Shown piece after piece: positions 1,435-18,858 of a DNA stretch of 64,000 nucleotides; position 1 is the first letter of the stretch; each line of letters opens with the position of its first letter. The notes under the pieces were generated by a model. That model was not told the DNA's origin, ran no database searches, and worked only from the letters and a program-made list of their open reading frames with translations. The stretch covers positions 893,001 through 957,000 of the forward strand of contig CP073340.1 in the NCBI GenBank assembly GCA_018141845.1. The letters are read 5' to 3'. The translations under genes and the position numbers were made by a program. This DNA comes from Lachnospiraceae bacterium oral taxon 096. Its GTDB lineage: Bacteria; Bacillota; Clostridia; Lachnospirales; Lachnospiraceae.

Positions 1435-1992
1435 ATGGGTAAGATTACAGTAACGAATTGTGAAATTGATGGACTTTATGTTATCGAGCCAACGGTGTTT
1501 CCAGATGCAAGAGGATACTTTGTGGAAACCTACAATCAGAGAGATTTTGAGGAAGCTGGACTGAATATGAAATTTGTACAGGACAATCAGAGCATGTCTG
1601 TCAAGGGAGTATTGCGTGGGCTACATTTTCAAAAGGAGCATCCACAGGGAAAGCTTGTTCGTGTACTGCGTGGGGAAGTTTTTGATGTGGCTGTAGATTT
1701 GAGAAAACATTCAAAGACATATGGAAAATGGTTTGGCGTGGTGCTTTCGGCAGAAAATAAAAAGCAATTTTATATTTCTGAGGGTTTTGCTCATGGCTTT
1801 TTGGTATTATCCGATGAGGCAGAGTTTGCCTATAAGTGTACAGATTTTTATCATCCAGGCGATGAGGGTGGAATTATTTGGAATGATCCATCTATTGGAA
1901 TTGAATGGCCAATTGCAGAGGGAATGGAAATTAATTTATCAGAAAAAGATACAAAGTGGAATGATTTAGCACATACATTCCATTTTTCATAA
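1435..1992 (+). CDS. rfbC: dTDP-4-dehydrorhamnose 3,5-epimerase
   Basis: The 185-residue product matches RmlC/RfbC in length and motifs: RGYFVETYN, RGLHFQ with the catalytic-type His64, KLVRVLRGEVFDVAVDLR, Tyr134 in AYKCTDFY, and the GIIWNDPSIGIEWP end. The enzyme epimerises C3 and C5 of dTDP-4-keto-6-deoxyglucose on the way to dTDP-L-rhamnose or a related deoxysugar. It is the first gene of the glycan operon, with GGAG 7 nt upstream of the ATG. rfbA, rfbB and rfbD are not in the window and must be elsewhere if rhamnose is made; a C3- or C5-only epimerase variant cannot be excluded. Confidence 0.9.
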   Translation: MGKITVTNCEIDGLYVIEPTVFPDARGYFVETYNQRDFEEAGLNMKFVQDNQSMSVKGVLRGLHFQKEHPQGKLVRVLRGEVFDVAVDLRKHSKTYGKWFGVVLSAENKKQFYISEGFAHGFLVLSDEAEFAYKCTDFYHPGDEGGIIWNDPSIGIEWPIAEGMEINLSEKDTKWNDLAHTFHFS

Positions 1993-2001
1993 GGAGCAAA
2001 G

Positions 2002-2814
2002 ATGAAGAATCTCATTGGACTGTTCAAGGATTTGCAAAAGAATAGAAAATTGATTTGGGAACTGGCAAAGGCAGATTTTAAAAAGCGTTTTGTAGGTTCT
2101 TATTTTGGCATTGTGTGGATGTTTGTGCAACCAGTTGTCACGGTATTTATTTATTTTGCCATCTTTCAGATGGGATTTAAAAGTGTTCCTCCAGTGCCGG
2201 GAGCGCCCTATGTTCTTTGGCTTGTGCCAGGAATTGTACCTTGGTTTTACTTTGCTGAGGCAATGAACACGGGGACAAGTTGCTTGCAGGAGTATGATTA
2301 TCTCGTTAAAAAAGTAGTTTTCAATGTTCAAATTTTGCCAGTAATTAAGTTGATTTCTTGCTTAATTGTGCATGGCATTTTTGTACTCATTATGATAGGA
2401 ATGTATTTTTGCTTTGGTCGTTTACCAAAGGTTACTTGGATACAGCTCATTTATTATACCTTTGCTTTATCCTTATTTGTGCTTGGTTGGACACTCATTA
2501 CGGCATCCATCAATGTATTTTTTAAGGATATGGCACAGATTGTCAGCATTGCCTTGCAATTTGGTATGTGGCTTGTGCCGATTATGTGGGATCCAACAAT
2601 GTTTCAAAATCGACCTGCGTGGTTGGATAGTGTGTTAAAGATCAATCCAATTTATTACATTGTCATGGGATACCGAGATAGTATGCTTCAGGGAAATTGG
2701 TTCTTTGAGCGTCCAATGCTCACCATTTATTTCTGGATTTGGACAATCGTCATGCTCATGATTGGATTGAAAGTATTTCATAAACTGAGACCACATTTAT
2801 CAGATGTATTGTAG
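2002..2814 (+). CDS. Polysaccharide ABC exporter, permease subunit (Wzm/TagG type)
   Basis: The 270-residue protein has the ABC-2 pattern of glycan exporters: an amphipathic N-terminus (LIWELAKADFKKRFVGSYFGIVWMFVQP) followed by about six hydrophobic segments. It would form the membrane channel that moves a finished undecaprenyl-linked glycan to the outer face of the membrane. The gene starts 9 nt after rfbC and ends with a TAG whose G belongs to an in-frame GTG of the next gene, so it is translationally close to the ATPase. Partner choice is clear from the adjacent ATPase. Confidence 0.9.
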   Translation: MKNLIGLFKDLQKNRKLIWELAKADFKKRFVGSYFGIVWMFVQPVVTVFIYFAIFQMGFKSVPPVPGAPYVLWLVPGIVPWFYFAEAMNTGTSCLQEYDYLVKKVVFNVQILPVIKLISCLIVHGIFVLIMIGMYFCFGRLPKVTWIQLIYYTFALSLFVLGWTLITASINVFFKDMAQIVSIALQFGMWLVPIMWDPTMFQNRPAWLDSVLKINPIYYIVMGYRDSMLQGNWFFERPMLTIYFWIWTIVMLMIGLKVFHKLRPHLSDVL

Positions 2815-2831
2815 TGTGGGGGGAGAAAAGG

Positions 2832-4178
2832 ATGCAAAATAATCTTGCGATATCCGTGCAGGATGTCACGAAAGTATATCGACTGTATGACAAGCCGATT
2901 GATCGATTAAAGGAGGCGTTAAGCCCAACCCATAAAGAGTACCACAAGAAGTTCTTTGCACTTGATAAAATTAGTTTTGATGTAGAAAAGGGGACAACTG
3001 TAGGAATTATTGGAACCAATGGTTCAGGAAAGTCAACGATTTTAAAGATTATTACAGGGGTCTTGTCACCAACCACAGGTAAGGTGGAGGTAGATGGAAA
3101 TATTTCTGCACTGCTTGAACTTGGAGCAGGCTTTAATATGGATTACACAGGTATTGAAAATGTATATATGAATGGAACGATGATGGGATTTTCTAAGGAG
3201 CAGATGGACCAAAAGCTCGATGAAATTTTGAATTTTGCAGACATTGGCGATTTTGTCTATCAGCCAGTAAAGACCTATTCATCAGGTATGTTTGTTCGAT
3301 TGGCCTTTGCCCTTGCCATCAATGTCGAACCAGAAATTTTGATTGTCGACGAGGCCTTGAGTGTGGGAGATGTCTTCTTTCAAGCAAAGTGCTACAAGAA
3401 AATTGATGAGATTCGAAAAAAGGGAACCACAGTTTTGATGGTCACTCATGACATGGGAAGTATTATTAAGTACTGTGACAAGGTAGTGTTGCTCAATCGA
3501 GGAGCTTTTGTTGCCGAAGGAGCACCGGGGCATATGGTGGATCTCTATAAAAAAATTCTTGCCAATCGTCTCGACGATGTGGAGAGAGAATTGACAGAAG
3601 AAAAATTTGAAAAGGCGTATACTTTTGGCACAGATGCCGAGCCAAAGAAGGACGATTTCAGTGTAGAGAGTGGAAACTTGATGAAAGAGAAGTTGACACT
3701 CAATCCGAATGTGACCGAGTATGGCGATGGTCGTGCAGAAATCTATGACCTTGGACTTCTTGATGAGAAAGGTGATGTCACCAATATGCTCCTAAAAGGA
3801 GAATACTTTACCATTCGAGAGCGAATTCGCTTCTTTGCAAATATTGAAAATCCTATTTTTACATATACAATAAAAGATAAAAAGGGAATGGATTTGACAG
3901 GAACCAATACCCTCTATGAGGGAAGTGATGTGCATTCTGTCAAAGATGGTGACACCTATGAAGTGGAGTTTCGCCAAAAAATGACTTTGCAGGGTGGGGA
4001 GTATCTACTTTCAATGAGTTGTACAGGGTTTGAAAATGGTACACACACCGTCTACCATCGACTCTATGATGTAGCCAATATTACGGTGATTTCCAATAAA
4101 AATACGGTAGGTGTCTATGATATGGAGCCTGAGGTTACCGTAAATTATTATGAGGGAGGTGCTCATGGAAAAAAGTAG
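2832..4178 (+). CDS. Polysaccharide ABC exporter ATPase with Wzt-type carbohydrate-binding domain
   Basis: The 448-residue ATPase has Walker A GTNGSGKST (61-69), ABC signature YSSGM (from 149) and Walker B ending VDE (172-174). Residues of about 284-440 form an extra C-terminal domain (EYGDGRAEIYDLGLLDEKGD onward) like the Wzt C-terminal domain, which in E. coli O8/O9a recognises the modified non-reducing end of the glycan before export. I choose the ATG at 2832 because GGGGGAG lies 6 nt upstream; an in-frame GTG at 2814 has no such site. The gene overlaps the next by 14 nt. Seen: the extra domain. Inferred: that it reads a terminal cap. Confidence 0.9.
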   Translation: MQNNLAISVQDVTKVYRLYDKPIDRLKEALSPTHKEYHKKFFALDKISFDVEKGTTVGIIGTNGSGKSTILKIITGVLSPTTGKVEVDGNISALLELGAGFNMDYTGIENVYMNGTMMGFSKEQMDQKLDEILNFADIGDFVYQPVKTYSSGMFVRLAFALAINVEPEILIVDEALSVGDVFFQAKCYKKIDEIRKKGTTVLMVTHDMGSIIKYCDKVVLLNRGAFVAEGAPGHMVDLYKKILANRLDDVERELTEEKFEKAYTFGTDAEPKKDDFSVESGNLMKEKLTLNPNVTEYGDGRAEIYDLGLLDEKGDVTNMLLKGEYFTIRERIRFFANIENPIFTYTIKDKKGMDLTGTNTLYEGSDVHSVKDGDTYEVEFRQKMTLQGGEYLLSMSCTGFENGTHTVYHRLYDVANITVISNKNTVGVYDMEPEVTVNYYEGGAHGKK

Positions 4179-7100
4179 CCTTACAGCAGAGGCATTATTA
4201 AAGATTTATGGATCAGATGAAAAGAAACTTTTGACAGAGCATCCAAGTCTTGAAAATCTCTATGCCTTTTCTAATCAAAGAGAGGGTGCAATTGAGTGGA
4301 TTGACTTCCAAAGAGGGAGAAAAGTCCTAGTGATCAATGACCGCTTTGGTGCTGTCGTTGGCAGCCTGTTGAAAAAAGGCTTGGATGTCACCGTCATTGA
4401 TAAGAAACAGGAGAATTTAGATTTTATTTCTGAGCGGTATGATGTCAGTGAGGAACAACTTCATTTTTTTAAGGGGAGCATTGCCGGTTTTAGCAAGAAC
4501 ACACAGTTTGACTATATCATATTGTTTGGAAATGTACATGGTGAGGGGGAGTGTGTAACCGAGCCGTCGACTTTTCGCTCTGTGAACAGATTGTTGGCAG
4601 ATCATGGAAAATTCATTTTTTGTGTGGATAATCGCTTTGGCATTCAATTTTTGGCTGGAACACAATCGAATGAGGAACAATTGAGCAAGTTTGAAATTCG
4701 ACAATTGATGAAGAGTGCAGGGATGAATGAGATGCATTTTTATTATCCCATTTATGATTATCGCCTGCCATTTTCCATCTATTCAGACGATTGTCTTCCA
4801 AAAAAGGGAGAGATTTCTCGCTATCTTCCTGCGTATAATTATCCGAAGTATCTCAATGTGGATATTGCTACCAAGTTTGCTCAATCGGGGGACACGGGAG
4901 ATTTTGTCAATATGGTCAATTCCTTTATTGTCATTGGTGGAAAGCCAGAGCGTGCAATTTTTGTCAAATACAATCGAACCCGTCAGGACGCCCTTCGCAT
5001 TAAGACTGTAATTGAGCGGGATGAACATGGAAAGTTGAGTGTTGTCAAGGCAGCACTGGATGAGGCAGGGAAAAAGCATATTTTGTCTTTTGAAGATAAG
5101 TATGAAAGGCTGAGCAAAGAAGAGACGAGAGTGAGTTATTTAAAGGCTGATATTTCGGCAGATGGAATGTCCGCACGTTTTCCATTTATTATGGGAGAAA
5201 CATTTACGACACTACTTGGGCGAGAAATTAAAGATGGCGAAGTACCTGTGGATAAAATTAATGAGGCACTCAACTGGATTAATGGAAAATCGGGAACCGC
5301 CAATCACGATGCAATTTTTGATAATTTCATTATTGCAAAGAATGGTCTAGTCGGCATTGACTATGAGTGGGTGGAAGACAAGACCTTGGAGAGAAAATAT
5401 ACTTGCTACCGTGCATTGCACGCCTTTTTTGAGAGCTTTAAGCATAGGCTCTATTTGAGAAAAGAATGGGAATTTATGAAACTTTTTGATATTTCCATTG
5501 ATGAAATGAAGCGCTTTGAAAAAGAGGAACAGGAATTTCAAAGCAAAGTTCACGGTGACAATCAAAAGATTTATTTGGATAATTACATTGTCGAGCCAAA
5601 GACAGACAAATTGATGAACCATTTGGTGAGAGAGAGAAATATTGCCATTGGGCAGATGGAAGGTATAAAAAAGATTGTCAAAGAGAGAGATACAACCATT
5701 CGAAAGATGACAGAGGTTAAGCGACTGACGGATAACCATGTCACCAATTTGGAGGCCATTATTGAAAATCTTCGTGCTGAAAATGTGGAGCTCTCGAAGT
5801 TAGTCAATTATTACGGAAATCATCTCTCTTTGATGACAAGAGTAAAGAGAAAGTTGCATAAGAAGATTGATGAAAAATACCCTGAGGGCAGTGAGGGAAG
5901 GAAAAAATTAAAGTATAGAAAGCTTGCCTTTACTCATCCAGGTCAATATTTAAAATTAAAATTGACCAAGAAGGGAAGAAATCTGATTGAAGGCGATTTT
6001 AAGGTCGGGGAGGATTATACAAAGTACGGAAAATTGCAATTTGCTGTGGAAGAAAATCCAAAGGTCAGCATTATTATTCCTGTGTATAATCAGATTCACT
6101 ACACCTATGCCTGCCTGGCCTCTATTCTTGAAAACACAAAGGATGTTACCTATGAAGTCATTATTGCCGATGATGTCTCTACTGATGCGACAAAGGAACT
6201 TGACCGATTTGTGGAGGGAATTGTCATCAGTAGAAATGAGACAAATCAGGGATTTTTAAAAAACTGCAATCAGGCAGCAAAGAAGGCAAAGGGGCAATAT
6301 ATCATGTTTTTAAACAATGACACCAAGGTTCATCCAAGGTGGTTGTCTTCTTTGGTGGAGTTGATTGAATCTGATGAGAGTATTGGAATGGTTGGCTCAA
6401 AACTGGTCTATCCTACGGGGCAGTTACAGGAAGCTGGTGGCATTATTTGGAGTGATGGGTCTGGATGGAATTATGGAAGATTGCAAGATCCTGATGACTG
6501 CGAATACAATTATGTCAAGGATGTCGATTATATTTCGGGGGCAGCCATCCTTTTGAGTTATCATTTGTGGAAGCAAATTGGAGGGTTTGATGAGAGATTT
6601 GCACCCGCCTATTGTGAAGATTCAGATTTAGCTTTTGAGGTGAGAAAGGCGGGATATCGAGTGTGCTATCAGCCAGCTTCTGTGGTCACTCACTTTGAGG
6701 GAATTTCCAATGGAACGGATGTCAATGGAAGTGGACTAAAGCGCTATCAGGTGGAAAATTCAATAAAGTTAAAGGAAAAGTGGGCAAAAGAATTTGCTCT
6801 TCAATATGAAAATATTGGAACACCTGATCCATTCCGTGCGAGGGAGAGAAGCAAGGGGAAAAAGATTATTCTCTTTGTTGATCACTATGTGCCAACTTAT
6901 GACAAGGATGCAGGTTCAAAGACGACATTCCAGTACTTAAAGATGTTGGTCAAGAAGGGCTATATTGTCAAGTTTTTAGGAGATAATTTTGCACACGAAG
7001 AACCATATACGAGCACATTGGAGCAAATGGGCATTGAGGTTTTATATGGTTCAAAGATGGCAGGAGATATTTGGGGGTGGATTGAAAGGCATCAGCATGA

Positions 7101-7962
7101 TCTTCATTTGGTGTATTTGAACCGCCCACATATTGCTACAAAGTATATTGATTTTATCAAGGAGCACACAGATTTAAAGGTAGTTTACTATGGTCACGAC
7201 TTGCACTTTTTGAGAGAGTACAGGGAGTATCAGTTGACAGGAGATCCAAAGTTACTTGAGTCAAGTGAATATTGGAAGAGTATTGAGTTTATGCTAATGG
7301 AAAAAGCCGATATGAGCTATTATCCGTCTGAGGTCGAGGTCGAATGTATTCATGACATTGACCCTGAAATTAAGGTCAAGGCCATTACAGCCTATGTCTA
7401 TGACGAGTTTATTGACCATTGCGATAAAAACTATGAGGAGAATGAGGGACTTTTGTTTGTTGGTGGTTTTGCCCATCCACCAAATGCAGATGCTGTACTT
7501 TGGTTTGTGAATGAAATTTTCCCATTGATTCGAGAAAAATTAAAGGTTAATTTCTATATTGTGGGTTCAAAGGCCAGTGATGAAATTAAGGCCCTACACA
7601 ACCCAGAGCAGGGCATTATTTTTAAGGGATTTGTCACAGATGAGGAATTAGAAAATTTGTATCAAAAGAATCGCCTCGTTGTTGTACCTCTTCGCTATGG
7701 TGCAGGAGTCAAGGGAAAAGTCATTGAAGCACTTCACAATGGAAGCGCCATTGTGACGACTTCGACGGGTGCAGAAGGTATTCCCTATGCACAGCGGATT
7801 ATGGAAGTGGTGGATGATCCAGAAGAATTTGCAAATACGGTTGTCTCTCTATATCAGGATATTCGTCGTCTACAAAAGATGAGTCAGACAGCCCTTGACT
7901 ATATCAAGGAGCAAAACAGTGTGGATGCTGCATGGTCTGTAATTTCGGAGGAATTTGAATAG
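4165..7962 (+). CDS. Multimodular methyltransferase / kinase-like / coiled-coil / double glycosyltransferase
   Basis: The 1265-residue protein has five parts. Residues 50-270 look like a class I methyltransferase (VLVINDRFG from 54, VTVIDKK with Asp79, DYIILFGN from 116). Residues 260-480 look kinase-like: Lys267 in FVKYN, Asp382 and Asn387 spaced as in the HxDxxxxN loop, and Asp399-x-Glu401 in GIDYEW. Residues 483-556 are charged and heptad-like, probably coiled coil. Residues 630-890 are a GT2 domain (KVSIIIPVYN, FLNNDTK, CEDSDLAFE). Residues 899-1265 are a GT4-type domain (FVGGFAHPPNADAV). WsaE of Geobacillus pairs a methyltransferase with two rhamnosyltransferases; WbdD of E. coli O9a has methyltransferase, kinase and coiled coil in this order. 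GGAGG 7 nt upstream favours the ATG at 4165. The kinase assignment is my inference. Confidence 0.8.
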   Translation: MEKSSLTAEALLKIYGSDEKKLLTEHPSLENLYAFSNQREGAIEWIDFQRGRKVLVINDRFGAVVGSLLKKGLDVTVIDKKQENLDFISERYDVSEEQLHFFKGSIAGFSKNTQFDYIILFGNVHGEGECVTEPSTFRSVNRLLADHGKFIFCVDNRFGIQFLAGTQSNEEQLSKFEIRQLMKSAGMNEMHFYYPIYDYRLPFSIYSDDCLPKKGEISRYLPAYNYPKYLNVDIATKFAQSGDTGDFVNMVNSFIVIGGKPERAIFVKYNRTRQDALRIKTVIERDEHGKLSVVKAALDEAGKKHILSFEDKYERLSKEETRVSYLKADISADGMSARFPFIMGETFTTLLGREIKDGEVPVDKINEALNWINGKSGTANHDAIFDNFIIAKNGLVGIDYEWVEDKTLERKYTCYRALHAFFESFKHRLYLRKEWEFMKLFDISIDEMKRFEKEEQEFQSKVHGDNQKIYLDNYIVEPKTDKLMNHLVRERNIAIGQMEGIKKIVKERDTTIRKMTEVKRLTDNHVTNLEAIIENLRAENVELSKLVNYYGNHLSLMTRVKRKLHKKIDEKYPEGSEGRKKLKYRKLAFTHPGQYLKLKLTKKGRNLIEGDFKVGEDYTKYGKLQFAVEENPKVSIIIPVYNQIHYTYACLASILENTKDVTYEVIIADDVSTDATKELDRFVEGIVISRNETNQGFLKNCNQAAKKAKGQYIMFLNNDTKVHPRWLSSLVELIESDESIGMVGSKLVYPTGQLQEAGGIIWSDGSGWNYGRLQDPDDCEYNYVKDVDYISGAAILLSYHLWKQIGGFDERFAPAYCEDSDLAFEVRKAGYRVCYQPASVVTHFEGISNGTDVNGSGLKRYQVENSIKLKEKWAKEFALQYENIGTPDPFRARERSKGKKIILFVDHYVPTYDKDAGSKTTFQYLKMLVKKGYIVKFLGDNFAHEEPYTSTLEQMGIEVLYGSKMAGDIWGWIERHQHDLHLVYLNRPHIATKYIDFIKEHTDLKVVYYGHDLHFLREYREYQLTGDPKLLESSEYWKSIEFMLMEKADMSYYPSEVEVECIHDIDPEIKVKAITAYVYDEFIDHCDKNYEENEGLLFVGGFAHPPNADAVLWFVNEIFPLIREKLKVNFYIVGSKASDEIKALHNPEQGIIFKGFVTDEELENLYQKNRLVVVPLRYGAGVKGKVIEALHNGSAIVTTSTGAEGIPYAQRIMEVVDDPEEFANTVVSLYQDIRRLQKMSQTALDYIKEQNSVDAAWSVISEEFE

Positions 7963-9097: not shown

Positions 9098-10180
9098 ATG
9101 GTAATTCGATCAAAGGCACCACTTCGCATTAGTTTTGGTGGTGGTGGAACAGATGTCGCACCATTTTGCGAAGAGGAAGGCGGAGCCATTATTGGTTCAA
9201 CAATTAATAAGTATGCCTATTGTTCCATTGTTCCACGAGATGACAATCAGATTATCGTTCATTCCTTGGACTTTGATATGACCGTAAAGTATAATACAAA
9301 TGAAAACTTTGTCTATGATGGAAAATTGGATTTGGTCAAGGCTGCACTCAAGGCAATGAAGATTAAAAAAGGCTGCGAAGTATATTTGCAGTGTGATGCG
9401 CCACCGGGATCGGGGCTAGGCACAAGTTCTACCGTAATGGTTGCCCTTTTGACGGCCATGGCCAAGTGGCAGGGAAAGGATCTTGATCAATATGCGATGG
9501 CCGATTTGGCTTTTCAGGTGGAAAGAGAAGATCTTCGTATTTCAGGTGGCTATCAAGATCAATATGCGGCGACATTTGGTGGATTTAATTTTATTGAATT
9601 TCATGGAAGAAATAATGTTGTGGTCAATCCATTGCGCATTAAGCGGGAAATTATCAATGAATTGCAGTACAATCTCTTGATGTGCTATACAGGAAAAGTC
9701 CATGTATCGGCGAATATTATTGATGATCAAGTTAAGAACTTTAAGAAAAAGGATCCTTTTGAGGCAATGTGTGAGGTCAAGGCTCTGGCCTATGCGATGA
9801 AGGACGAACTTTTAAAAGGCAATCTCTACAGCTTTGGAAAACTTCTCGACTACAGTTGGGAGAGCAAAAAGCGAATGAGCGACAAAATTTCCAATCCAGA
9901 AATTGATGCACTCTATCGAAAGGCTAAGGAAGAGGGAGCCATTGGTGGAAAGCTTTTGGGCGCTGGCGGTGGAGGTTTTTTACTTATCTTTTGTCCATAT
10001 AATGTGCGTCACAAGGTGGCGGCAAGCCTAGAGAAAATGGGCGGTCAGATTATGGATTGGAATTTTGAATTGCGTGGTGCACAGAGTTGGATCACAAATG
10101 AAGATCGATGGGATTACAAGGAGGTGAATGTGCACACAGCAAGAAAGGCCTATTGTTTTGATGTGAAAAGGGAGGAATAA
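9098..10180 (+). CDS. hddA: D-glycero-alpha-D-manno-heptose 7-phosphate kinase (GHMP family)
   Basis: The 360-residue protein opens with SKAPLRISFGGGGTDVAPF, the hallmark of the HddA/fucokinase-like GHMP branch, and has the ATP-binding loop PPGSGLGTSS and the late glycine motif GGKLLGAGGGGF. It would phosphorylate D-glycero-D-manno-heptose 7-phosphate to the 1,7-bisphosphate for GDP-heptose synthesis. The partner isomerase gmhA follows after one base, which strongly supports heptose rather than fucose as substrate. The later enzymes, bisphosphate phosphatase (gmhB) and guanylyltransferase (hddC), are not in this window. Confidence 0.85.
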   Translation: MVIRSKAPLRISFGGGGTDVAPFCEEEGGAIIGSTINKYAYCSIVPRDDNQIIVHSLDFDMTVKYNTNENFVYDGKLDLVKAALKAMKIKKGCEVYLQCDAPPGSGLGTSSTVMVALLTAMAKWQGKDLDQYAMADLAFQVEREDLRISGGYQDQYAATFGGFNFIEFHGRNNVVVNPLRIKREIINELQYNLLMCYTGKVHVSANIIDDQVKNFKKKDPFEAMCEVKALAYAMKDELLKGNLYSFGKLLDYSWESKKRMSDKISNPEIDALYRKAKEEGAIGGKLLGAGGGGFLLIFCPYNVRHKVAASLEKMGGQIMDWNFELRGAQSWITNEDRWDYKEVNVHTARKAYCFDVKREE

Positions 10181-10181
10181 A

Positions 10182-10811
10182 ATGGACTATATTGCACAGT
10201 TAATAGAGCGCTACCCAGTGCTTGCTTCTGTCGAAAATGAAATTCGCACAGCATATCAAGTGCTGGAAAGGGCATATACAAATCACAAAAAACTTCTTGT
10301 GGGTGGCAATGGCGGAAGTTGTGCAGATGCAGAGCATATTGTGGGGGAGTTGATGAAGGGGTTTGTCAAGAAGAGAGAAATTCCAAAGACGATGCAGGAG
10401 AGACTTCTTGGATTAGATCAAGAACTTGGCAAACAGCTAGCCAATGGACTTCAATCCTCATTGCGTGCCATTGCAATTACAGGGCATGCGGGACTTTCTA
10501 CAGCATTTGCCAATGATGTAGATCCAGAAATGACCTATGCACAGCAAGTCAATGGATATGGTGATGAAGGGGATGTCCTACTTGCCATTTCGACATCAGG
10601 AAATTCCAAGAATTTGATTTATGCGGCACTGACAGCTAGGGCAAAGGATATGCCTGTGGTTTTGCTCAGTGGAAAAGATGGGGGAAAACTTCGAGCTATT
10701 GCCGATGTCAGTATTGTTGTCCCTAATCAAAAGACTTATCAAATTCAGGAACTACATTTGCCAATTTATCATGCACTCTGTTTACAGTTGGAAGATAAAT
10801 TTTTTAAGTAG
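10182..10811 (+). CDS. gmhA: Sedoheptulose 7-phosphate isomerase (SIS domain)
   Basis: The 209-residue protein has the SIS fold signature GGNGGSCADAEHIVGELMKGF of GmhA and the STSGNSKNLIYA phosphate-binding loop. It converts sedoheptulose 7-phosphate to D-glycero-D-manno-heptose 7-phosphate, the first committed step of heptose synthesis. GGAGG stands 6 nt upstream of the ATG and the gene is one base from hddA, so both are made together. In Gram-positives this route feeds GDP-heptose into S-layer or capsular glycans, as in Aneurinibacillus. The stretch KKREIPKTMQERLLGLDQEL between motifs is the usual GmhA insertion. Confidence 0.9.
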   Translation: MDYIAQLIERYPVLASVENEIRTAYQVLERAYTNHKKLLVGGNGGSCADAEHIVGELMKGFVKKREIPKTMQERLLGLDQELGKQLANGLQSSLRAIAITGHAGLSTAFANDVDPEMTYAQQVNGYGDEGDVLLAISTSGNSKNLIYAALTARAKDMPVVLLSGKDGGKLRAIADVSIVVPNQKTYQIQELHLPIYHALCLQLEDKFFK

Positions 10812-10819
10812 GTGATGTG

Positions 10820-11599
10820 ATGAAACATACATTTGCAATTTGTGCCTACAAGGCATCACCTTACTTAGAAGCATGTATTCGGTCTCTTCTTGCACAGACT
10901 GTGCCGTCGGACATTATTCTTTGTACTTCCACACCAAATGATTATATCTATCAAGTGGCCGATAAGTATCAGATTGATGTCTATGTCAATGAGGCGGGTG
11001 GAAATATTAGTGCGGATTGGAATTTTGCCTATGAAAAATCGATGACAGAATTGGTGACCATCGCCCATCAAGATGATTTATATTTAAAGGATTACACACA
11101 AACTTTATTAAGTATGTATGAGAAATACCCAGATATGAGTCTATTTACAGCGGCCTCTGTGACATTGAAGAAGGGAAAGCTCATTAGTTTTGGCAGTGTA
11201 GAAATTGTAAAAAAACTTTTGCGTCTTCCGTTGCGATTTCGCAATCAGGCGGATAAGACAGGGATAAAGATGTTGGCTCTGCGTTTTGGCAATCCTGTAA
11301 TTTGTCCAAGTTGTGCCTACAATAAGAAACTTTGTGGAGAAAATCTATTTATTTCTGATTATAGTTTTGTGCTCGACTGGGAGGTATTGATTAAATTGGC
11401 AAAAAAACCAGGACGCTTTGTGTTAGTAGAAAAGCCAATGATTATGTACCGTGTCCACGATGGGGCAGAGACAAAGGCCGCCATTGTGGATCACCGCAGA
11501 GAGAAGGAGGAGGCAGAAATATTTGATCAGCTCCTACCAAAGCCAATTTCTGCCATAGTAAAAAAAATGTATAGGAGATCCTATGGAGCGTATTCATAA
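10820..11599 (+). CDS. Family 2-like glycosyltransferase
   Basis: The product has about 259 residues. It starts HTFAICAYKASPYLEACIRSLLAQTV, the nucleotide-sugar binding start of a GT-A glycosyltransferase, and carries IAHQDDLYLKDY, where HQDD fits the DxD metal-binding position. No membrane segment is obvious, so it should act on the cytoplasmic face on lipid-linked glycan. Donor and acceptor are unknown. A GTG precedes the ATG directly; I choose the ATG, with a modest AGGTG ribosome site. The 3' end overlaps the next gene by 17 nt. Confidence 0.8.
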   Translation: MKHTFAICAYKASPYLEACIRSLLAQTVPSDIILCTSTPNDYIYQVADKYQIDVYVNEAGGNISADWNFAYEKSMTELVTIAHQDDLYLKDYTQTLLSMYEKYPDMSLFTAASVTLKKGKLISFGSVEIVKKLLRLPLRFRNQADKTGIKMLALRFGNPVICPSCAYNKKLCGENLFISDYSFVLDWEVLIKLAKKPGRFVLVEKPMIMYRVHDGAETKAAIVDHRREKEEAEIFDQLLPKPISAIVKKMYRRSYGAYS

Positions 11600-13808
11600 T
11601 CAAAGAGGGTGGATATCTCTGCTCTCTATTTCTGCAATTGCTTTTACATTGGTGGGGGCATATTTTGTGTTTGATGGAAACTTAGGTTTTATAGAGCGGT
11701 TATATGATCAAGCAAGCATAAATATGCTGGTTGAACTTGTGCTGCTCTTTATTTGTTTGGAGCTATGCCTGTTTTTCTTACCAGGGTCAGGAAAAATTTA
11801 TGGCGTGACATTTGTGGTTATGGTGGTATTGTGGTTACATCAGGCACTTCTTCCAATTCTGACTGCAGGATTATATTTTTTTGGACTGGTGGTTATCGGA
11901 GAGGATATTCTTTTATTTTATAGAAAAGAGGAAGGGTGGAAGACCTCGAGTGGGATGCTTCGCATTTCCCATGACTTTTTGGTGGGGAGTGTTTTGTATA
12001 TTCTCTTTATTTGTGTGATTTCCTTATTTGGAATTGGAGAATATCGAGTGATTCGCATTTGCACTCTTGGAATTATTGTTGTTGCCATTTTATTTTATCT
12101 CTTGTTTTCCAATGCCCGCATTACGCCAATTCATTTTGTCAATGTATTAGAAGATAGGGAGAGGGAGTTTTTATATCGTCATCGTTTCCTCTTTTATTTT
12201 TGGATTGGCTTTATCTTGGTGATTTTATTATTGCAGGCGGGGAGAATGAATATTGCACTTGATTATGACAGTTTGCACTATGGTCTGCGCACGAAATTTA
12301 TTTTAAATAATGGGCGTGGCATCTATGAAAAATTGGGGTTTGCCAATGATGTCTATGTCTATCCCAAAGGACAGGAAATCTTGTTGATGCCACTCAATTA
12401 TGATATTAGTTATGGTTTTGTTCTTGCCTTTTCTGTAATTTTATGTGTGGCCGTTCTTGCAATGATTTATGATATTGTCAAAAAGGAATGTGGAATGATG
12501 GCGGGAATGTTGGCCATGACGATTGCGGCAAGTATTCCGGGGATTACCAATATGAGTGTTTCTGCAAAGACAGATATTGCGACATTATTTGTTCAATTGA
12601 TTTTTGTCAGCGACATTCTTGAGCATTTAAAGGAAGAAAAGAAAAAAATGAATGGACGGCATTTGATTTGGGCAGGAACTGCACTTCTCTTTTCTCTTGT
12701 CCTAAAGCCAACAAGTATATTTTTTTCTGGCACAATCTTTTTGGTCACCATCATTTATTTACTCTGTACAAAAACATTTTGTCTAAAGGAAAAAACGGGT
12801 ATTTGGCTATTTGGGCTTCCTACCTTTTTGGCTGTAGTTTTGGTATGGCTTCGCACATTTTGGCTCACAGGCTTTCCCATTACTTCTATTTTTGGGAGCT
12901 TGTGGGAAAAGATGGGAATGCAGGTCAAATATCCATTTGTCACAGCAAAACTTCCATCGAGTAAAGGAGCACAGGAGGGAGTCAGTGCGACAGTACAATA
13001 TTTGCATCGGCTCTTTGGGCTATTTATCGCTCCGATGGGCGATGATATGCGCCACATTCTCATTGCGGCTCCGACTGCTTTGTTTGGTATGATGGTTTTG
13101 ATTTTGTTGTTGACTTTGCTGAAAAAAAGAAGAACGAAAGAGGAGGGGTATTTGACCATTCTCTTTTTGGCTCTCCTTGTGGCAAGTTTATATGCACTCA
13201 AAAATTTGTATCAGGTGGATGGAAATTACTTTGTTCTACTGTATGCTGTTGTGATTATTCTCTTTGTGGAGCGTCTATTTCCTGTGCTTTTTGATGGAAG
13301 ATCAATTCAGATATTGAATGTGGGACTTGTTCCAGCATTTGTTTTTTCAGTGATATTGTGCAGTATTACGAATTGGGCTGGAAGTTTTGGAATGACACCA
13401 GTGACGAGAACATCTTATGGTTTTTTTGATCACAGAAAGCAAAGAATTGAGGCGACAAAAAAGAGCAATGATTATAACATATATCAATTATTGTCTACAT
13501 CGCCAAGAACAAGAATGCTTTCGATTGCTGAACAGCCGGATGGTCTTTTGTTTCCTTGCAGTGTGATGAGTTACACAGACATTGAGGGAAGTGGCGGAAA
13601 TCCAGGTGTAGTGTCAAGATTAAAGTTTTTTAAGGAGTATTTGGAATGGGCACAGATAGACTATGTCTATGTGACCGACAGCTTTTTAAAGGATCATTCA
13701 AGGGCTTCCGATATTGTGGGATATATGAGGGAAGATGGAAGTTTAAAGAGTGTTATTCATGAGGGAAATAAAACCTTGTATCAATACATTCCAGGAACAA
13801 TAGAGTAG
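11583..13808 (+). CDS. Large polytopic membrane protein, probable GT-C glycosyltransferase
   Basis: The 741-residue protein has many hydrophobic segments over its first 600 residues and a soluble C-terminal tail. After about the sixth segment the outward-facing sequence MNIALDYDSLHYGLRTKFI holds acidic residues where GT-C enzymes place their catalytic Asp/Glu. GT-C enzymes use polyprenyl-phosphate sugars outside the membrane. The operon makes such a donor through the dolichol-phosphate-mannose-synthase-like gene at 21061, which supports this role. I do not recognise a named family. The start overlaps the previous gene and has AGGAG 7 nt upstream. Confidence 0.6.
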   Translation: MERIHNQRGWISLLSISAIAFTLVGAYFVFDGNLGFIERLYDQASINMLVELVLLFICLELCLFFLPGSGKIYGVTFVVMVVLWLHQALLPILTAGLYFFGLVVIGEDILLFYRKEEGWKTSSGMLRISHDFLVGSVLYILFICVISLFGIGEYRVIRICTLGIIVVAILFYLLFSNARITPIHFVNVLEDREREFLYRHRFLFYFWIGFILVILLLQAGRMNIALDYDSLHYGLRTKFILNNGRGIYEKLGFANDVYVYPKGQEILLMPLNYDISYGFVLAFSVILCVAVLAMIYDIVKKECGMMAGMLAMTIAASIPGITNMSVSAKTDIATLFVQLIFVSDILEHLKEEKKKMNGRHLIWAGTALLFSLVLKPTSIFFSGTIFLVTIIYLLCTKTFCLKEKTGIWLFGLPTFLAVVLVWLRTFWLTGFPITSIFGSLWEKMGMQVKYPFVTAKLPSSKGAQEGVSATVQYLHRLFGLFIAPMGDDMRHILIAAPTALFGMMVLILLLTLLKKRRTKEEGYLTILFLALLVASLYALKNLYQVDGNYFVLLYAVVIILFVERLFPVLFDGRSIQILNVGLVPAFVFSVILCSITNWAGSFGMTPVTRTSYGFFDHRKQRIEATKKSNDYNIYQLLSTSPRTRMLSIAEQPDGLLFPCSVMSYTDIEGSGGNPGVVSRLKFFKEYLEWAQIDYVYVTDSFLKDHSRASDIVGYMREDGSLKSVIHEGNKTLYQYIPGTIE

Positions 13809-13816
13809 GAGAGTTT

Positions 13817-15658
13817 ATGTTTGAAAAATTAACACTCAAGGAAAAATATAATATTTTGATTCAAGTGGCCATTGTCGGCAGCTTTGTCGGCATTGGATTC
13901 TTGGTCAATCACGCATTGCGTATTTCTGGATTATATATGGATGACTTATATATGTGGTCAACCTACGGCGAACAGAGCTTTTTGGAATATGTCTTTCCTG
14001 TTGGATCAACGAGATTTCGACCAGTGTATTGGTTTGTGGCCTGGATTGAACTGGGGATTATTCGCTATCACATTACATGGATTGTACCAATCAATATTCT
14101 CATTGCAGCAGCAACAGCATATTTTATTTATCTCTTTGCAAAAGAAATTAGTCAAATGCCTTGGGTTGCTTATGGAATGGGCGTGATGTTTTTGGTTTCT
14201 CGTTTTGCGTATTATAATATTGGTCAATTATTGGGACTGATGGAGGCGATGGGAATTATTTTTTCTCTGCTTATTGCCCATTTTTTGTATCAATATATTT
14301 GCTATGAGAGAAATGCAAGATATTATGTGGCATTGCTTTTTTATATTTTGATTTGTTTTACTCACGAGCGCTATATTGTGCTTTTACCTGTATTTTTTCT
14401 TGCCATTTTGGCAAGGAGAACAAAGGATTTATTTGCCTGTGTAAGTGCGATTTTGGCGAGTGCAGGAATTATTGTTCTTCGAACATTGACGACAGGAAAG
14501 GTTGTGCCAGCAGGAACGGGGGGCACCTATGTCACAGACACATTTAGTGTAAAGAGTATGTTCGGTTCTGTACTGGACGAGATTTTGTATATGTTTGGTG
14601 TCAATGCTGGACCAGAGCATCTCAATGGAATGACCTGGGCACAAACTCCGCTTCCAATAAAAATCCTTGTCTATATAGGAGGAGTGGTAGCAATTTTTAT
14701 TGTGTACAAGTTTATTCGCAGCCTCTATGTTCTTCACAGCAAAAAGAGAAAAATTGATACCATTATCTGGCTCACTGTATTTTTTATTTTCTTTATTGGA
14801 GGAACCATCCTTTCATCGGCGGTGACCATTCGTGTAGAAATGCGCTGGATTTATGCCCCTTATGTCTTTATGTTACTTCTTGTGTCATTGATGATGGGAA
14901 CTTGGAAGAGAGCAAAAGAGATTCGAATGCAGGAGAAAGTTTTAATTCAATATTTACCTCTTGCGACAGTTACTTTGTGGATGATTTTGATGATTCCTGT
15001 GGAGCTCTATGGTCGAACAAAGTACGATAGAATTTATCTCTTCCCAAATCAAAAGCGATATAATTCTCTGGCTGATGAGACCTATTGGAAATATGGCGAT
15101 GATATCTTTGGAAAAGAAATCTATATTATTGGCAATAGCTATAAGATGAGTGATTTTACAGCAAAAACCTTCTTTAAAGTGTATGACCGAAAGAGAAAAG
15201 CGGAAGGAACAGTGGTCAAGCATATTTCATCAGTCAAAGAGCTTGGACAAATTCGCTCGAATATGATTGTGCTCAAGGAAGATCCTGCACACAATGTATT
15301 TAGTGATGTCACAGATGCCTATCGAGATTTAAAATGTGAAATTGTCAAGGGATATTATCGAGATGGTTGGATGGAGCAGGAGGCAAAGATCAATGTGATG
15401 ACAGGAGCCAATGGCCAAATTGATTTAGAGTTTATGTATCCTGGAGTACTTGATGGAAAGCAAAATATTACGATTTCTGTGGATGGCAAGGAGCCAGAAA
15501 CTTTTGATATGGAAAATAATATTGAAAATAAGAGCTACAAAGTCAATCCTTATTCCATTGTGACACTTCAATTTGACAATGACTTTGTTTATCCCGATGC
15601 GAAGCAACAGAGGGGAGAACTTCCATTAAGTGTGATTATGAATGTGACAACGAGCTAG
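13817..15658 (+). CDS. Polytopic membrane protein with extracytoplasmic C-terminal domain, possible GT-C
   Basis: The 613-residue protein has about ten hydrophobic segments up to residue 400, then a soluble region of roughly 200 residues ending in a beta-rich stretch (FMYPGVLDGKQNITISVDGKEPETF). After the first segment the loop GLYMDDLYMWSTYGEQSF contains an Asp pair at the usual GT-C catalytic site, and RFRPVYW follows. I infer a membrane glycosyltransferase or glycan-modifying enzyme with a carbohydrate-contacting tail. It starts 8 nt after the previous gene with AGGAG upstream. No named family is recognised. Confidence 0.55.
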   Translation: MFEKLTLKEKYNILIQVAIVGSFVGIGFLVNHALRISGLYMDDLYMWSTYGEQSFLEYVFPVGSTRFRPVYWFVAWIELGIIRYHITWIVPINILIAAATAYFIYLFAKEISQMPWVAYGMGVMFLVSRFAYYNIGQLLGLMEAMGIIFSLLIAHFLYQYICYERNARYYVALLFYILICFTHERYIVLLPVFFLAILARRTKDLFACVSAILASAGIIVLRTLTTGKVVPAGTGGTYVTDTFSVKSMFGSVLDEILYMFGVNAGPEHLNGMTWAQTPLPIKILVYIGGVVAIFIVYKFIRSLYVLHSKKRKIDTIIWLTVFFIFFIGGTILSSAVTIRVEMRWIYAPYVFMLLLVSLMMGTWKRAKEIRMQEKVLIQYLPLATVTLWMILMIPVELYGRTKYDRIYLFPNQKRYNSLADETYWKYGDDIFGKEIYIIGNSYKMSDFTAKTFFKVYDRKRKAEGTVVKHISSVKELGQIRSNMIVLKEDPAHNVFSDVTDAYRDLKCEIVKGYYRDGWMEQEAKINVMTGANGQIDLEFMYPGVLDGKQNITISVDGKEPETFDMENNIENKSYKVNPYSIVTLQFDNDFVYPDAKQQRGELPLSVIMNVTTS

Positions 15659-15701
15659 GGCTTTACCTATACAAATGAAGGAGAAAGTGATAGACTAAGC
15701 G

Positions 15702-17006
15702 ATGGGAAGAAAGATATTTTACATCATTTGCCCGATTTTTGGATTTTTATTTGTGATGGCCTACATTCGTGCAGCAACAGTGGATGTCATCTATACAGAT
15801 TATGTGCGCTTGATTCATTCCTATTTACCCAATGTGTGGAGTTTTGAGCCATATACGCATGCGGATGTCTTGACGAGAATGCCAATTAGCTATATTGAGC
15901 GTATGATTAATGTTGGTATTTTTGGGTATAGCACGACATTTGATATGCTCTTGGGAGCATTTTGCTTATTTTTGGCGAGTGTGACATTGGCAAAGTATTG
16001 TGCAGATTGGAAGATTTTTGGCGGATGGTTCTTGGCCATTGTGATTTTATTTTTCTCACTCAACAAGTGGGAGATGTTAACCAATGGAAGTGGGTGGGTG
16101 CATTTTGCTGCGTTTGCCTGCTTCTTTCGGCACTACTATGTATTTGACAAAAAGAGGCATTCTAAGGAACTTATCTTTTGGCCGATTTTTACAATATTGT
16201 TGGTTGCAGGTCCATATTGTGCAGTCTATGCGGGGACAATGCTTTTGGCCAATTTCTACCTCATTGTGAAAGAAAAAAAGGTAAGTCGGCAAAATATCTA
16301 TGAAATTTTGGCCATTTTTATTCCTCTTTTGCTCTTTATGTATTCGAGAGCTCACTCGGTGGAAGAGCATGCTGGGGCGACAACGATGAGTATGGGCGAA
16401 GTAATGAAAAAAGAGCCATTTTTGTTTGTGCGTCTGCTGATCAAATCCTTTGCTTCTATGGTTGTTTCAGGCGAATATGCAAAGGATCATCACCTTTCGA
16501 ATTTATTTTTATTTGCTCTTGGGCTGGCTGTAATGGGGGCTTATCTCTATGCACTCTATCTGAATATTGCCTATAAATTATATGAAAAGACCGTGTTTCC
16601 AATGCTTTTATTGATTTCAGGTGGGATGAATCACTTGTTGATTGCAATTTCAAGATGGATTTTTTTGAAAGAGGATTATGGGATGAGTTCTCGCTACGCT
16701 TTGCAATTTCAAGTGGGCGTTGTAGGCATTTTGTTGACTTTTGCTTTTGCTAAAAGGGCAGCTAGAAGGATAGGTGTGGTCTTTTGCCTTTTATTTGTGG
16801 GTGGAAATTTACTTGTCAATGCAGATGAAGTAAAAAAGGCAGATAGCCGAAAGCAGTATTTTATAGAGAGAAGAGAATTAGGTTTACATTTTGAACAAGC
16901 AAGTGATCAGGAATTAAAGGAAAAGTTCCAATATCGCAGTCCACAAAAGACAAGAGAGGCCCTGCGTCTTTTGAAGGAGCAACACTTGAATATATTTAGA
17001 AATTGA
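15702..17006 (+). CDS. Polytopic membrane protein of the glycan operon, possible GT-C
   Basis: The 434-residue protein has about ten hydrophobic segments. The first outward loop reads VDVIYTDYVRLIHSYLPNVW, with acidic residues placed as in GT-C enzymes and in the two genes before it. The only good ribosome site, AAGGAG at 15678-15683, lies 18 nt before this ATG, which is long; no better in-frame start is visible, so translation may be weak or coupled. It is the third such membrane protein in a row. A function in assembling or decorating the glycan outside the membrane is inferred from position only. Confidence 0.5.
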   Translation: MGRKIFYIICPIFGFLFVMAYIRAATVDVIYTDYVRLIHSYLPNVWSFEPYTHADVLTRMPISYIERMINVGIFGYSTTFDMLLGAFCLFLASVTLAKYCADWKIFGGWFLAIVILFFSLNKWEMLTNGSGWVHFAAFACFFRHYYVFDKKRHSKELIFWPIFTILLVAGPYCAVYAGTMLLANFYLIVKEKKVSRQNIYEILAIFIPLLLFMYSRAHSVEEHAGATTMSMGEVMKKEPFLFVRLLIKSFASMVVSGEYAKDHHLSNLFLFALGLAVMGAYLYALYLNIAYKLYEKTVFPMLLLISGGMNHLLIAISRWIFLKEDYGMSSRYALQFQVGVVGILLTFAFAKRAARRIGVVFCLLFVGGNLLVNADEVKKADSRKQYFIERRELGLHFEQASDQELKEKFQYRSPQKTREALRLLKEQHLNIFRN

Positions 17007-17021
17007 TGGAGGTTAATCAAA

Positions 17022-17801
17022 ATGAAGGTAGTTATCCTTGCTGGCGGTTTTGGAACAAGAATTACGGAAGAGAGTCATTTGAAACCAAAACCAATGATCG
17101 AAATTGGAGAACAGCCAATTTTATGGCATATTATGAAGTACTACTCACAGTTTGGTTTCAATGATTTTGTCATTTGTCTGGGGTACAAGCAATATGTTGT
17201 AAAGGAGTATTTTGCAGATTATTTTTTGCACACCTCAGATATTACATTTGATCTTGCCAATAATAAGATGGAAGTTCACAACAACTACGCAGAACCTTGG
17301 AAGGTGACCTTGGTGGATACAGGATTACATACAATGACGGGGGGAAGAATTAAGCGAATTCAAAATCACATCAAGGATGAGCCGTTTATGCTCACCTATG
17401 GCGATGGACTGAGCAATGTGGATTTAAAAAAGCTTCTTGAATTTCATCAGTCCCATGGCAAGATTGGAACATTGACAACCGTCAATATTGGTCAGGCCAA
17501 GGGGGTATTGACCATTGACGAGAGTAATACCATTCGTTCATTTAGAGAAAAGAATGAAAATGATGGAGCCATTATTAATGGTGGCTTTATGGTGATGAAT
17601 CCTGAAATTTTTGACTATATTGAGGGAGACAGCACTGTGTTTGAGAAAGAACCGCTACAAAAACTTGCACAGGACGGCCAGTTGATGAGCTTTTATCACG
17701 ATGGCTTCTGGCAATGTATGGATACGCAGCGGGAGAAGATGAAACTAGAGAAACTTTGGGAGACAAAGAAAGCACCGTGGAAGGTATGGGACAATGCTTG
17801 A
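17022..17801 (+). CDS. rfbF: Glucose-1-phosphate cytidylyltransferase
   Basis: The 259-residue nucleotidyltransferase begins MKVVILAGGFGTRITEES and has KPKPMIEIGEQPILWHIMKYY, the pattern of RfbF/AscA. It makes CDP-glucose from CTP and glucose 1-phosphate, the entry to CDP-3,6-dideoxyhexoses. The next two genes are the following two pathway steps in order. It overlaps rfbG by 8 nt. GGAGG lies upstream at normal distance. Confidence 0.92.
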   Translation: MKVVILAGGFGTRITEESHLKPKPMIEIGEQPILWHIMKYYSQFGFNDFVICLGYKQYVVKEYFADYFLHTSDITFDLANNKMEVHNNYAEPWKVTLVDTGLHTMTGGRIKRIQNHIKDEPFMLTYGDGLSNVDLKKLLEFHQSHGKIGTLTTVNIGQAKGVLTIDESNTIRSFREKNENDGAIINGGFMVMNPEIFDYIEGDSTVFEKEPLQKLAQDGQLMSFYHDGFWQCMDTQREKMKLEKLWETKKAPWKVWDNA

Positions 17802-18840: not shown

Positions 18841-18858
18841 TAGAAAATGAGGAATGAT

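Follow-up and report, generated by a model that had tools for sequence, protein, structure and literature searches.

What would a single polypeptide that joins a methyltransferase, a kinase-like domain and two glycosyltransferases do beside the wzm- and wzt-like transporter genes of a Gram-positive bacterium? This question is raised by a locus of Lachnospiraceae bacterium oral taxon 096 (contig CP073340.1), of which a stretch of 64,000 nucleotides, here called the window, was analysed. A preliminary description had proposed a WbdD-like cap-and-ruler module fused to two glycosyltransferases, which polymerises, measures and caps its glycan in one chain. We consider it probable that the encoded protein, P0001, is a Gram-positive chain terminator of the Klebsiella O7 ORF6 methyltransferase-kinase type fused to its polymerase.

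The P0001 gene, its operon and its relatives

P0001 is one open frame on the forward strand, running from an ATG at 4165 to a stop at 7962 and encoding 1265 amino acids, as checked by translation. A GGGAGG ribosome-binding-type sequence lies ahead of this ATG, which falls inside the end of wzt (stop at 4178). Translation could also begin at an in-frame ATG at 4150. On the basis of the frame, the Pfam matches and the ribosome-binding-type sequence, the whole gene (4165..7962) is predicted to encode a polymerase-terminator fusion. Directly after wzm-wzt, its parts follow in the order methyltransferase, kinase-like domain, helical stretch, GT2 and GT4, and the earlier reading of these parts in a single frame is borne out by Pfam and homology. 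Toward the C-terminus, a linker defined from the sequence and the alignment (residues 572-625, 5878..6039) leads to the GT2 glycosyltransferase module (residues 626-890, 6040..6834), in which residues 635-753 match Pfam GT2 (6.5e-26). The GT4-type module (residues 891-1265, 6835..7959) matches Glyco_trans_1_4 at residues 1096-1232 (9e-23).

Upstream on the same strand are an rfbC/rmlC-like gene (1435..1992), named from its translation alone, a wzm-like ABC-2 permease gene (2002..2814; Pfam ABC2_membrane, 4.7e-13) and a wzt-like ATPase gene (2814..4178) with a Wzt_C domain at about 3711-4124 (Pfam, 5.5e-40). This arrangement recurs: a Wzt_C match lies directly upstream of the fused or methyltransferase gene, within about 170 bp, in 20/20 regions, a Wzm match is found in 16/20 relatives' regions and an rfbC/rmlC-like match in 13/20, the one in L067 coinciding with a gene annotated rfbC. 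A methyltransferase and a kinase also lie near wzm-/wzt-type genes in L066 (an O7-type protein of Pseudomonas asturiensis), in L007 and in 8/9 further regions. Elsewhere in the window are a choline-binding-repeat protein gene (273-1160) and, downstream of P0001, a LicD gene (20223-21068). LpxC was not found in the host genome, which has two sortase matches, consistent with the Gram-positive host that had been supposed.

Sampling across the family gave matches in 43/397 genomes, the P0001 genome included, and matches at E <=1e-90 in 39/334 sampled genera, counting its own genus, for which the sample was one genome. Thirty-four of the 42 other matching genomes were classed as fused or split and 8 were left out; none of L039-L065 was classed in its own right, but L039 entered the classification as L093, the two being one gene. 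In 21/34 tree rows the methyltransferase has a gene of its own, and the tree requires 7 changes, or 6 if L096 is left out; L096, counted as split, is read in two frames that overlap, and its sister L009 in one. L024 was counted as fused although its N-terminus has no methyltransferase match. The kinase through GT4, on the other hand, is in one frame in all 33 of 33 complete close relatives. Scans of viral contigs and a tblastn search of P0001 residues 1-600 against plasmids gave nothing useful.

Kinase domain, helical stretch and methyltransferase

The kinase domain comprises residues 262-475 (4948..5589), as delimited by conserved residues, the profile of a related 700-aa family and a match to L066. 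Lys295, Asp382, Asn387, Asp399 and Glu401 are invariant in 34/34 aligned sequences, the last four at the positions given by the preliminary description; this count and the tree exclude L027, whose contig ends inside GT2. In protein-kinase-like order come a core Lys, the catalytic Asp, the Asn and the metal Asp, and 34/34 sequences have all four. No kinase model in Pfam matched P0001, and a PDB search with the profile of the fused and split kinases gave no significant kinase. With the profile of the 700-aa family, protein kinases of the PDB are matched at a best E of 2.7e-4, kinases being 59 of the 60 matches listed, of 127. In three alignments among the matches listed, the Asp and Asn are in register, the conserved Lys is off by one residue and the metal Asp lies outside the coverage. 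AlphaFold models of P0001 residues 1-622 (mean pLDDT 41.8) and of the L007 kinase (pLDDT 49.0) were both poor, and the case for a kinase fold therefore comes from sequence. Foldseek with the L007 model returned kinases in 49 of the best 50 rows, and we give this result little weight because none of these rows reached E 0.001 and their TM-scores were at most 0.33. The reading of the middle domain as a kinase holds as a prediction from conserved residues and profiles.

Directly after the kinase is a predicted long helix or coiled coil (residues 478-571, 5596..5877), recognised from a heptad test, a conserved length and the low-confidence model of mean pLDDT 41.8, which has a single helix across residues 482-571. 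Residues 478-565 contain one proline, and their excess of hydrophobic residues at a/d positions was matched by 3/200 shuffles. Across the family, 18/34 sequences were at <=10/200 shuffles, and the WbdD control was at 0/200. The heptad signal thus appears real but uneven. A conserved RLTDNHVTNL motif lies inside the stretch. The distance from G464 to N524 is 60 in 19/34 sequences (range 53-83) and that from N524 to P573 is 49 in 33/34; as the stalk is short and near-constant, its length variation gives no support for a ruler.

The methyltransferase domain (residues 1-258, 4165..4938) has a weak Methyltransf_25 match under the Pfam cut-off (residues 62-148, 0.0054) and was also defined by the ends of separate-gene homologues and by hhalign to WbdD. 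In split relatives, the match of the methyltransferase gene to P0001 ends at residue 257-262 and the following gene begins near residue 266, so that homology supports this weakly matched part. In an alignment of 47 methyltransferases, the SAM-binding loop of P0001 (residues 54-65, VLVINDRFGAVV, 4324..4359) is degenerate: N58 and R60 occupy the places of the O7-type glycines 91 and 93, two of the three SAM-loop glycines. Position 91 is Gly in 44/47, while the middle glycine, position 93, is Gly in 22/47 and Asp in 20/47, which makes N58 the telling change. The equivalents of O7 Y66 and E112 (Y33 and D79) are kept, and Y28 and Y158 could not be aligned. A plainly dead methyltransferase was considered and rejected, as P0001 retains 30/37 family-conserved columns, equal to L009 with an intact SAM loop.

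Under a rule chosen after viewing the alignment, the loss of at least two of the three glycines, the SAM loop counts as lost in 5/13 fused rows (P0001, L088, L010/L090 and L024) and in 0/22 split ones. The methyltransferases of L010/L090 and L024 look decayed, keeping 22, 21 and 15 of the 37 conserved columns. We predict a weak or inactive methyltransferase in P0001. Methyl capping by P0001 seems doubtful, because the SAM-loop glycines are replaced, and a phosphate cap is a safer prediction than methyl-phosphate.

Proposed mechanism and alternatives

From the observed domains, homology, conserved residues and gene order we infer a mechanism, with its sugars, cap chemistry, step order, ruler role and oligomer. 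The GT2 and GT4 modules would extend a glycan at the membrane, probably of rhamnose and probably on undecaprenyl diphosphate, and the helical stalk would set the distance of the kinase. When the growing non-reducing end reaches the kinase, its terminal sugar would be phosphorylated and growth would stop. The methyltransferase, N-terminal in P0001 and a separate neighbouring protein in many relatives, would then methylate the phosphate, if active. The Wzt C-terminal domain would recognise the capped end, and Wzm-Wzt would export the chain. Of the original idea that one chain polymerises, measures and caps, the methyltransferase-kinase-helix unit fused to a glycosyltransferase pair beside wzm and wzt stands, with polymerising, spacing and capping as its best interpretation; methyl capping is the doubtful part, given N58 and R60.

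We tentatively raise a further possibility, which we hold to be less likely than the fusion reading itself: in Gram-positive systems of this kind, termination may fall to the kinase alone, with phosphate as the export signal and methylation as a loose add-on. Since the methyltransferase is split off in many relatives and the SAM loop is lost in several fused ones, some bacteria would export glycans capped with a bare phosphate. If this is true, Wzt must recognise a bare phosphate cap in some of them; we know of no described system with such a cap.

That P0001 is instead a true member of the WbdD family, a cap-and-ruler module joined to two glycosyltransferases, appears unlikely. Domain order is shared, the Asp-x4-Asn spacing and a later Asp match, Wzt_C is present, and the methyltransferases are related (hhalign 88.9%, at the superfamily level only). 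Against the one WbdD sequence used, however, the P0001-type kinase had no significant BLASTP relation, its HMMER scores with filters off were at the level of the shuffled controls, and hhalign gave a probability of <1%, whereas hhalign did find the methyltransferase. A significant kinase kinship to WbdD is accordingly rejected, and with it the 'WbdD-like' label for the kinase, even though the non-significant alignments place Asp and Asn on those of WbdD. Pfam APH and Pkinase match WbdD, but neither matches P0001 or 11 members of the 700-aa family, and both are absent from the best 25 of 70 Pfam families for the fused and split kinases. The 700-aa family, moreover, strongly matches the O7-type protein, and WbdD and WbdA are separate genes.

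It is improbable that P0001 works as a WsaE-like enzyme, terminating by methylation of a sugar hydroxyl with a middle domain of only structural use. WsaE does combine a methyltransferase with two glycosyltransferases in a Gram-positive cluster of overlapping wzm-wzt-wsaE genes (PMC2943079, in part). A structural role fits poorly with kinase residues that are invariant in 34/34 sequences, and termination by the methyltransferase fits poorly with its separation in 21/34 tree rows and a degenerate SAM loop in 5/13 fused ones. A small chance also falls to a kinase that is active without being a terminator, phosphorylating an internal sugar or making a phosphodiester for later decoration. The LicD and choline-binding-repeat genes of the window would suit such a role, but proximity to Wzt_C transporters and the proven O7 function favour termination. 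An O7-type terminator fused to its polymerase is the reading that we prefer, and under it Asp382 should be an essential residue and bacteria of this kind should carry surface glycans capped with phosphate. Comparing relatives with split and with fused genes offers a natural way to ask which of the activities ends chain growth.

Comparison with known systems

Like WbdD of E. coli O9a, as described in part of PMC3482155, P0001 has the order methyltransferase, kinase and, by prediction, coiled coil, a Wzt_C domain for export and similar kinase motif spacing (WbdD Asp351/Asn356/Asp369). It differs in a kinase that is not significantly related in sequence and in its glycosyltransferase modules, which share P0001's chain, whereas WbdD works beside a polymerase of its own chain, WbdA, which E. 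coli HS encodes in another gene. The likeness to Geobacillus stearothermophilus WsaE, compared by description, is in the Gram-positive host, the N-terminal methyltransferase, the two glycosyltransferase domains and the position after wzm-wzt. As far as the excerpts of PMC2943079 go, WsaE is described with three domains and without a kinase, and its cap is a 2-O-methyl on rhamnose.

K. pneumoniae O7 ORF6 is a methyltransferase–kinase–coiled coil–GT2–GT2 protein that caps with methyl-phosphate; a D441A change abolished its kinase activity, and an Ig-like carbohydrate-binding domain follows the kinase, its essentiality being called unclear (excerpts of PMC11231755). This published architecture overtakes the earlier belief that a kinase-containing fusion had not been described. 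We made the comparison through L066 as a proxy, which has each of the 6 SAM-site residues listed for O7, with identical numbering, and whose Asp443 corresponds to O7 Asp441. Against L066, the profile of the 700-aa family gives a single alignment that spans the methyltransferase, kinase and next domain (215.9 bits, E 9e-63), and P0001 matches it over residues 62-488 (20% identity, E 2.3e-5 in a single comparison). With the fused and split kinase profile, E is 0.0015 and Asp443/Asn448/Asp461/Glu463 are in register. Restricted to the kinase, the profile of the 700-aa family scores no more than 9.8 bits (E 5) on L066, and the link of the kinase to O7 therefore depends on the full-length alignment and on the match at E 0.0015. 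The P0001 GT2 is closer to the second GT2 of L066 (E 3.8e-23) than to the first (9e-6).

By these alignments, P0001 belongs with the Klebsiella O7 ORF6 type. It resembles ORF6 in its methyltransferase, a kinase invisible to Pfam, a predicted helical stalk, two glycosyltransferase modules and a wzm-wzt operon, with homology traced through L066 and the 700-aa family. Unlike ORF6, it lacks an Ig-like domain after the kinase, where the 700-aa relatives have a domain that aligns with L066; its second glycosyltransferase is GT4-type rather than GT2, its host is Gram-positive, its SAM loop is degenerate, and its relatives often carry the methyltransferase as a separate gene. No Gram-positive case of such a terminator was described in the open-access literature among the matches listed (titles and abstract openings), and 'Gram-positive', 'Firmicutes' and 'Clostridi' do not occur in the main text of PMC11231755. 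Klebsiella O7 has already provided proof of this design, and P0001 is its Gram-positive version rather than a new one. What is new is the Gram-positive membership, the methyltransferase often being a separate gene, the constant kinase-GT4 unit and the loss of the SAM loop in some fused members. A way of ending chains that is established for O antigens of Gram-negative bacteria would thus extend to a Gram-positive family, with polymerase and terminator sharing one chain in P0001.

The operon and its host

The preliminary description had read methyltransferase-like, kinase-like, helical, GT2 and GT4 parts in one reading frame, and this holds: the frame at 4165-7962 is intact and encodes 1265 residues. 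A ribosome-binding-type GGGAGG lies upstream, and the frame's start overlaps the 3' end of a wzt-like gene; a wzm-like gene and, by eye from the translation, an rfbC-like gene are also found upstream. The Wzt has a C-terminal Wzt_C domain (Pfam 5.5e-40), and in E. coli O9a the capped chain end is recognised by a domain of this type. Within the protein, Pfam matches are confident for GT2 (residues 635-753) and a GT4-type domain (1096-1232) and below threshold for the methyltransferase (62-148), and no kinase match was found anywhere in it. The host genome, the only one of its genus in the collection searched, is a single 2.24-Mb contig without an LpxC match and with two sortase matches, as expected of a Gram-positive bacterium. 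A fragment-length 16S rRNA match (G000:C1:164987-165479) exists there beside three full copies.

Near the operon are a LicD-family gene (20223-21068, + strand; Pfam 2.7e-37) and a choline-binding-repeat protein gene (273-1160, - strand), from which we suppose that a surface glycan may be decorated with phosphocholine. GHMP-kinase and SIS-domain genes occupy 9098-10811 (heptose-type by eye). At 17022-20199, nucleotidyl transferase and DegT-type genes and, by eye, a dehydratase-like gene resemble, again by eye, a CDP-dideoxysugar set. Three consecutive large proteins at 11583-17006 are membrane-type by eye, one with a sub-threshold PMT_2 match and two without a Pfam match.

Fused and split relatives

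In the host's family, 43 of 397 genomes, including the host's own, match the protein at E up to 1e-90, and 34 of the other 42 were classed as fused or split. Twelve encode methyltransferase, kinase, helix, GT2 and GT4 in one frame as in the window (one of them, L024, was added by hand). In the remaining 22, the methyltransferase is an adjoining gene of 254-332 residues, and the second protein (~980-1120 residues where complete) starts at the equivalent of residue 266. Kinase through GT4 form one frame in all 33 relatives with a complete gene, that of the 34th (L027) running off its contig. A GT2-GT4 tree of 34 sequences, that of the window protein among them, comprises 13 fused and 21 split members and needs seven fused/split changes, at least five of them on well-supported branches, or six when the doubtful L096 is left out. 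In this subfamily, therefore, the methyltransferase can be detached and the link between kinase and polymerase persists. In L096 (G754, 1495-5333), the methyltransferase and kinase-GT parts lie in two overlapping frames, which may be a real split, a frame break or a sequencing error; in L009, a sister that shares its genus code, they form one frame.

Further out, however, the kinase is not bound to the polymerase, and other relatives have it apart from any glycosyltransferase. Twelve loci (L007, L008, L028-L037) encode proteins of 679-698 residues, here the 700-aa family, with a methyltransferase, a kinase and a further C-terminal domain, and within them the GT parts of the window protein find no match; in L007, separate GT genes follow. 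In 20/20 regions the methyltransferase or fused gene is preceded, on the same strand and within ~170 bp, by a Wzt_C match; Wzm (16/20) and RfbC (13/20) matches also occur. Nine more regions, taken from different families within the same class and phylum, have methyltransferase and kinase adjoining or fused, with Wzm and Wzt matches close by in eight and Wzt_C in six (the Wzt match of L118 is partial only). Three of the nine (L115-L117) carry both in proteins of 1260-1555 residues, that of L116 with a GT2 match as well. At L119 (G989), the profile of the 700-aa post-kinase domain matches two neighbouring genes in addition to the kinase gene, and thus this domain may be mobile.

Kinase, methyltransferase and stalk

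The profile of the fused/split family gave few PDB hits, none significant (best E 0.025), comprising coiled coils and one weak phosphotransferase (E 2.7), and thus the kinase assignment of the window protein passes through its relatives. The kinase regions of the 700-aa and fused/split alignments match with an hhalign probability of 99.9%. The 700-aa kinase profile finds STK33 (2.7e-4), then JAK2, PKR, JAK1 and GCN2 (~6e-4 to 2e-2), and kinases make up 59 of the best 60 of 127 PDB rows. Protein kinases carry their catalytic Asp and Asn in an HRDxxxxN motif, and three of the PDB alignments place the family Asp and Asn on these residues; in them the conserved Lys is displaced by one residue, and they do not extend over the metal-binding Asp. 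Lys295, His305, Asn380, Asp382, Asn387, Asp399, Glu401, Trp402 and Arg416 are invariant (34/34), which bears out the earlier choice of Asp382/Asn387 and Asp399-x-Glu401 as kinase residues. AlphaFold models from a three-row alignment were poor; Foldseek on the better one returned mostly kinases among the rows shown, none significant.

Aligned to the O7-type protein described below, the SAM-loop glycine positions are N58, R60 and G62 in the window protein. At least two of the three glycines are lost in 5/13 fused proteins (the window protein, L088, L024 and the near-copies L010 and L090), 0/22 split and 0/11 of the 700-aa kind. In L024 (G178), the SAM-loop stretch is missing from the aligned N-terminal domain and the kinase residues are intact. 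Outside the loop, the methyltransferase domain of the window protein is as conserved as in intact-loop fused relatives, with 30/37 conserved columns kept. We therefore predict, with fair confidence, a phosphate at the chain end, which may or may not carry a methyl.

Around the heptad-like stretch proposed at 483-556, residues 478-565 contain one proline and a heptad signal equalled in 3/200 shuffles, less even across the family (18/34 sequences at ≤10/200). The stalk measures 49 residues from N524 to P573 in 33/34 and 60 from G464 to N524 in 19/34 (range 53 to 83). This near-constant length fits a fixed spacer and neither proves nor excludes a ruler.

Comparison with WbdD and O7 ORF6

The protein had been likened to WbdD, the O9a chain terminator. 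For comparison we used WbdD of E. coli HS, whose cluster is annotated as O9 family and whose serotype we take to be O9. The likeness stands for the methyltransferases, which show superfamily-level kinship (hhalign 88.9%), but not for the kinases, which have no significant relation. Sub-threshold kinase alignments do keep the catalytic residues in register, for which we rate a true WbdD-family module joined to two glycosyltransferases slightly higher, though still as improbable.

A kinase-containing WsaE-like fusion had been thought undescribed, yet such a fusion is published for K. pneumoniae O7 ORF6: a methyltransferase, an annotation-invisible kinase, an Ig-like domain, a coiled coil and two GT2 modules (PMC11231755). 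There, ORF6 acts in vitro on the terminal rhamnose by phosphorylation and partial methylation, and its kinase activity is lost in the D441A variant. A tblastn search of plasmids with a 700-aa relative returned two records: L067 (Citrobacter braakii), matching in the methyltransferase only, and L066 (Pseudomonas asturiensis), our stand-in for the O7 sequence. L066 (1457 aa) directly follows ABC permease and ATPase genes, and has O7 residues Y28, Y66, G91, G93, E112 and Y158 at identical numbers and Asp443 as the counterpart of D441; its two GT2 domains contain the motifs DHDD and NND. The 700-aa profile aligns with it once, from methyltransferase to post-kinase domain (215.9 bits, E 9e-63), and residues 62-488 of the window protein align to L066 at 20% identity (E 2.3e-5). 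The fused/split kinase profile also matches L066, at E 0.0015, with active-site residues in register. From these matches, O7 ORF6 appears a better parent than WbdD, and the window protein is probably best classed as a fusion of an O7-type terminator with its polymerase. The kinase-only 700-aa profile misses L066 (E 5), which lowers our confidence in this O7-type reading.

The analysis establishes domains, homology and gene context; the sugars, chemistry and ruler role in the following scheme are inferred by analogy with O7 and O9a. GT2-GT4 would extend the chain, the kinase at the stalk's far end would add phosphate to the terminal sugar, this phosphate may be methylated by a methyltransferase, and Wzt_C would recognise the chain end before export by Wzm-Wzt. 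Taken as a whole, we regard this scheme as moderately probable. We found no Gram-positive variant of an O7-type terminator in the literature searched. The kind of protein is already known from O7.
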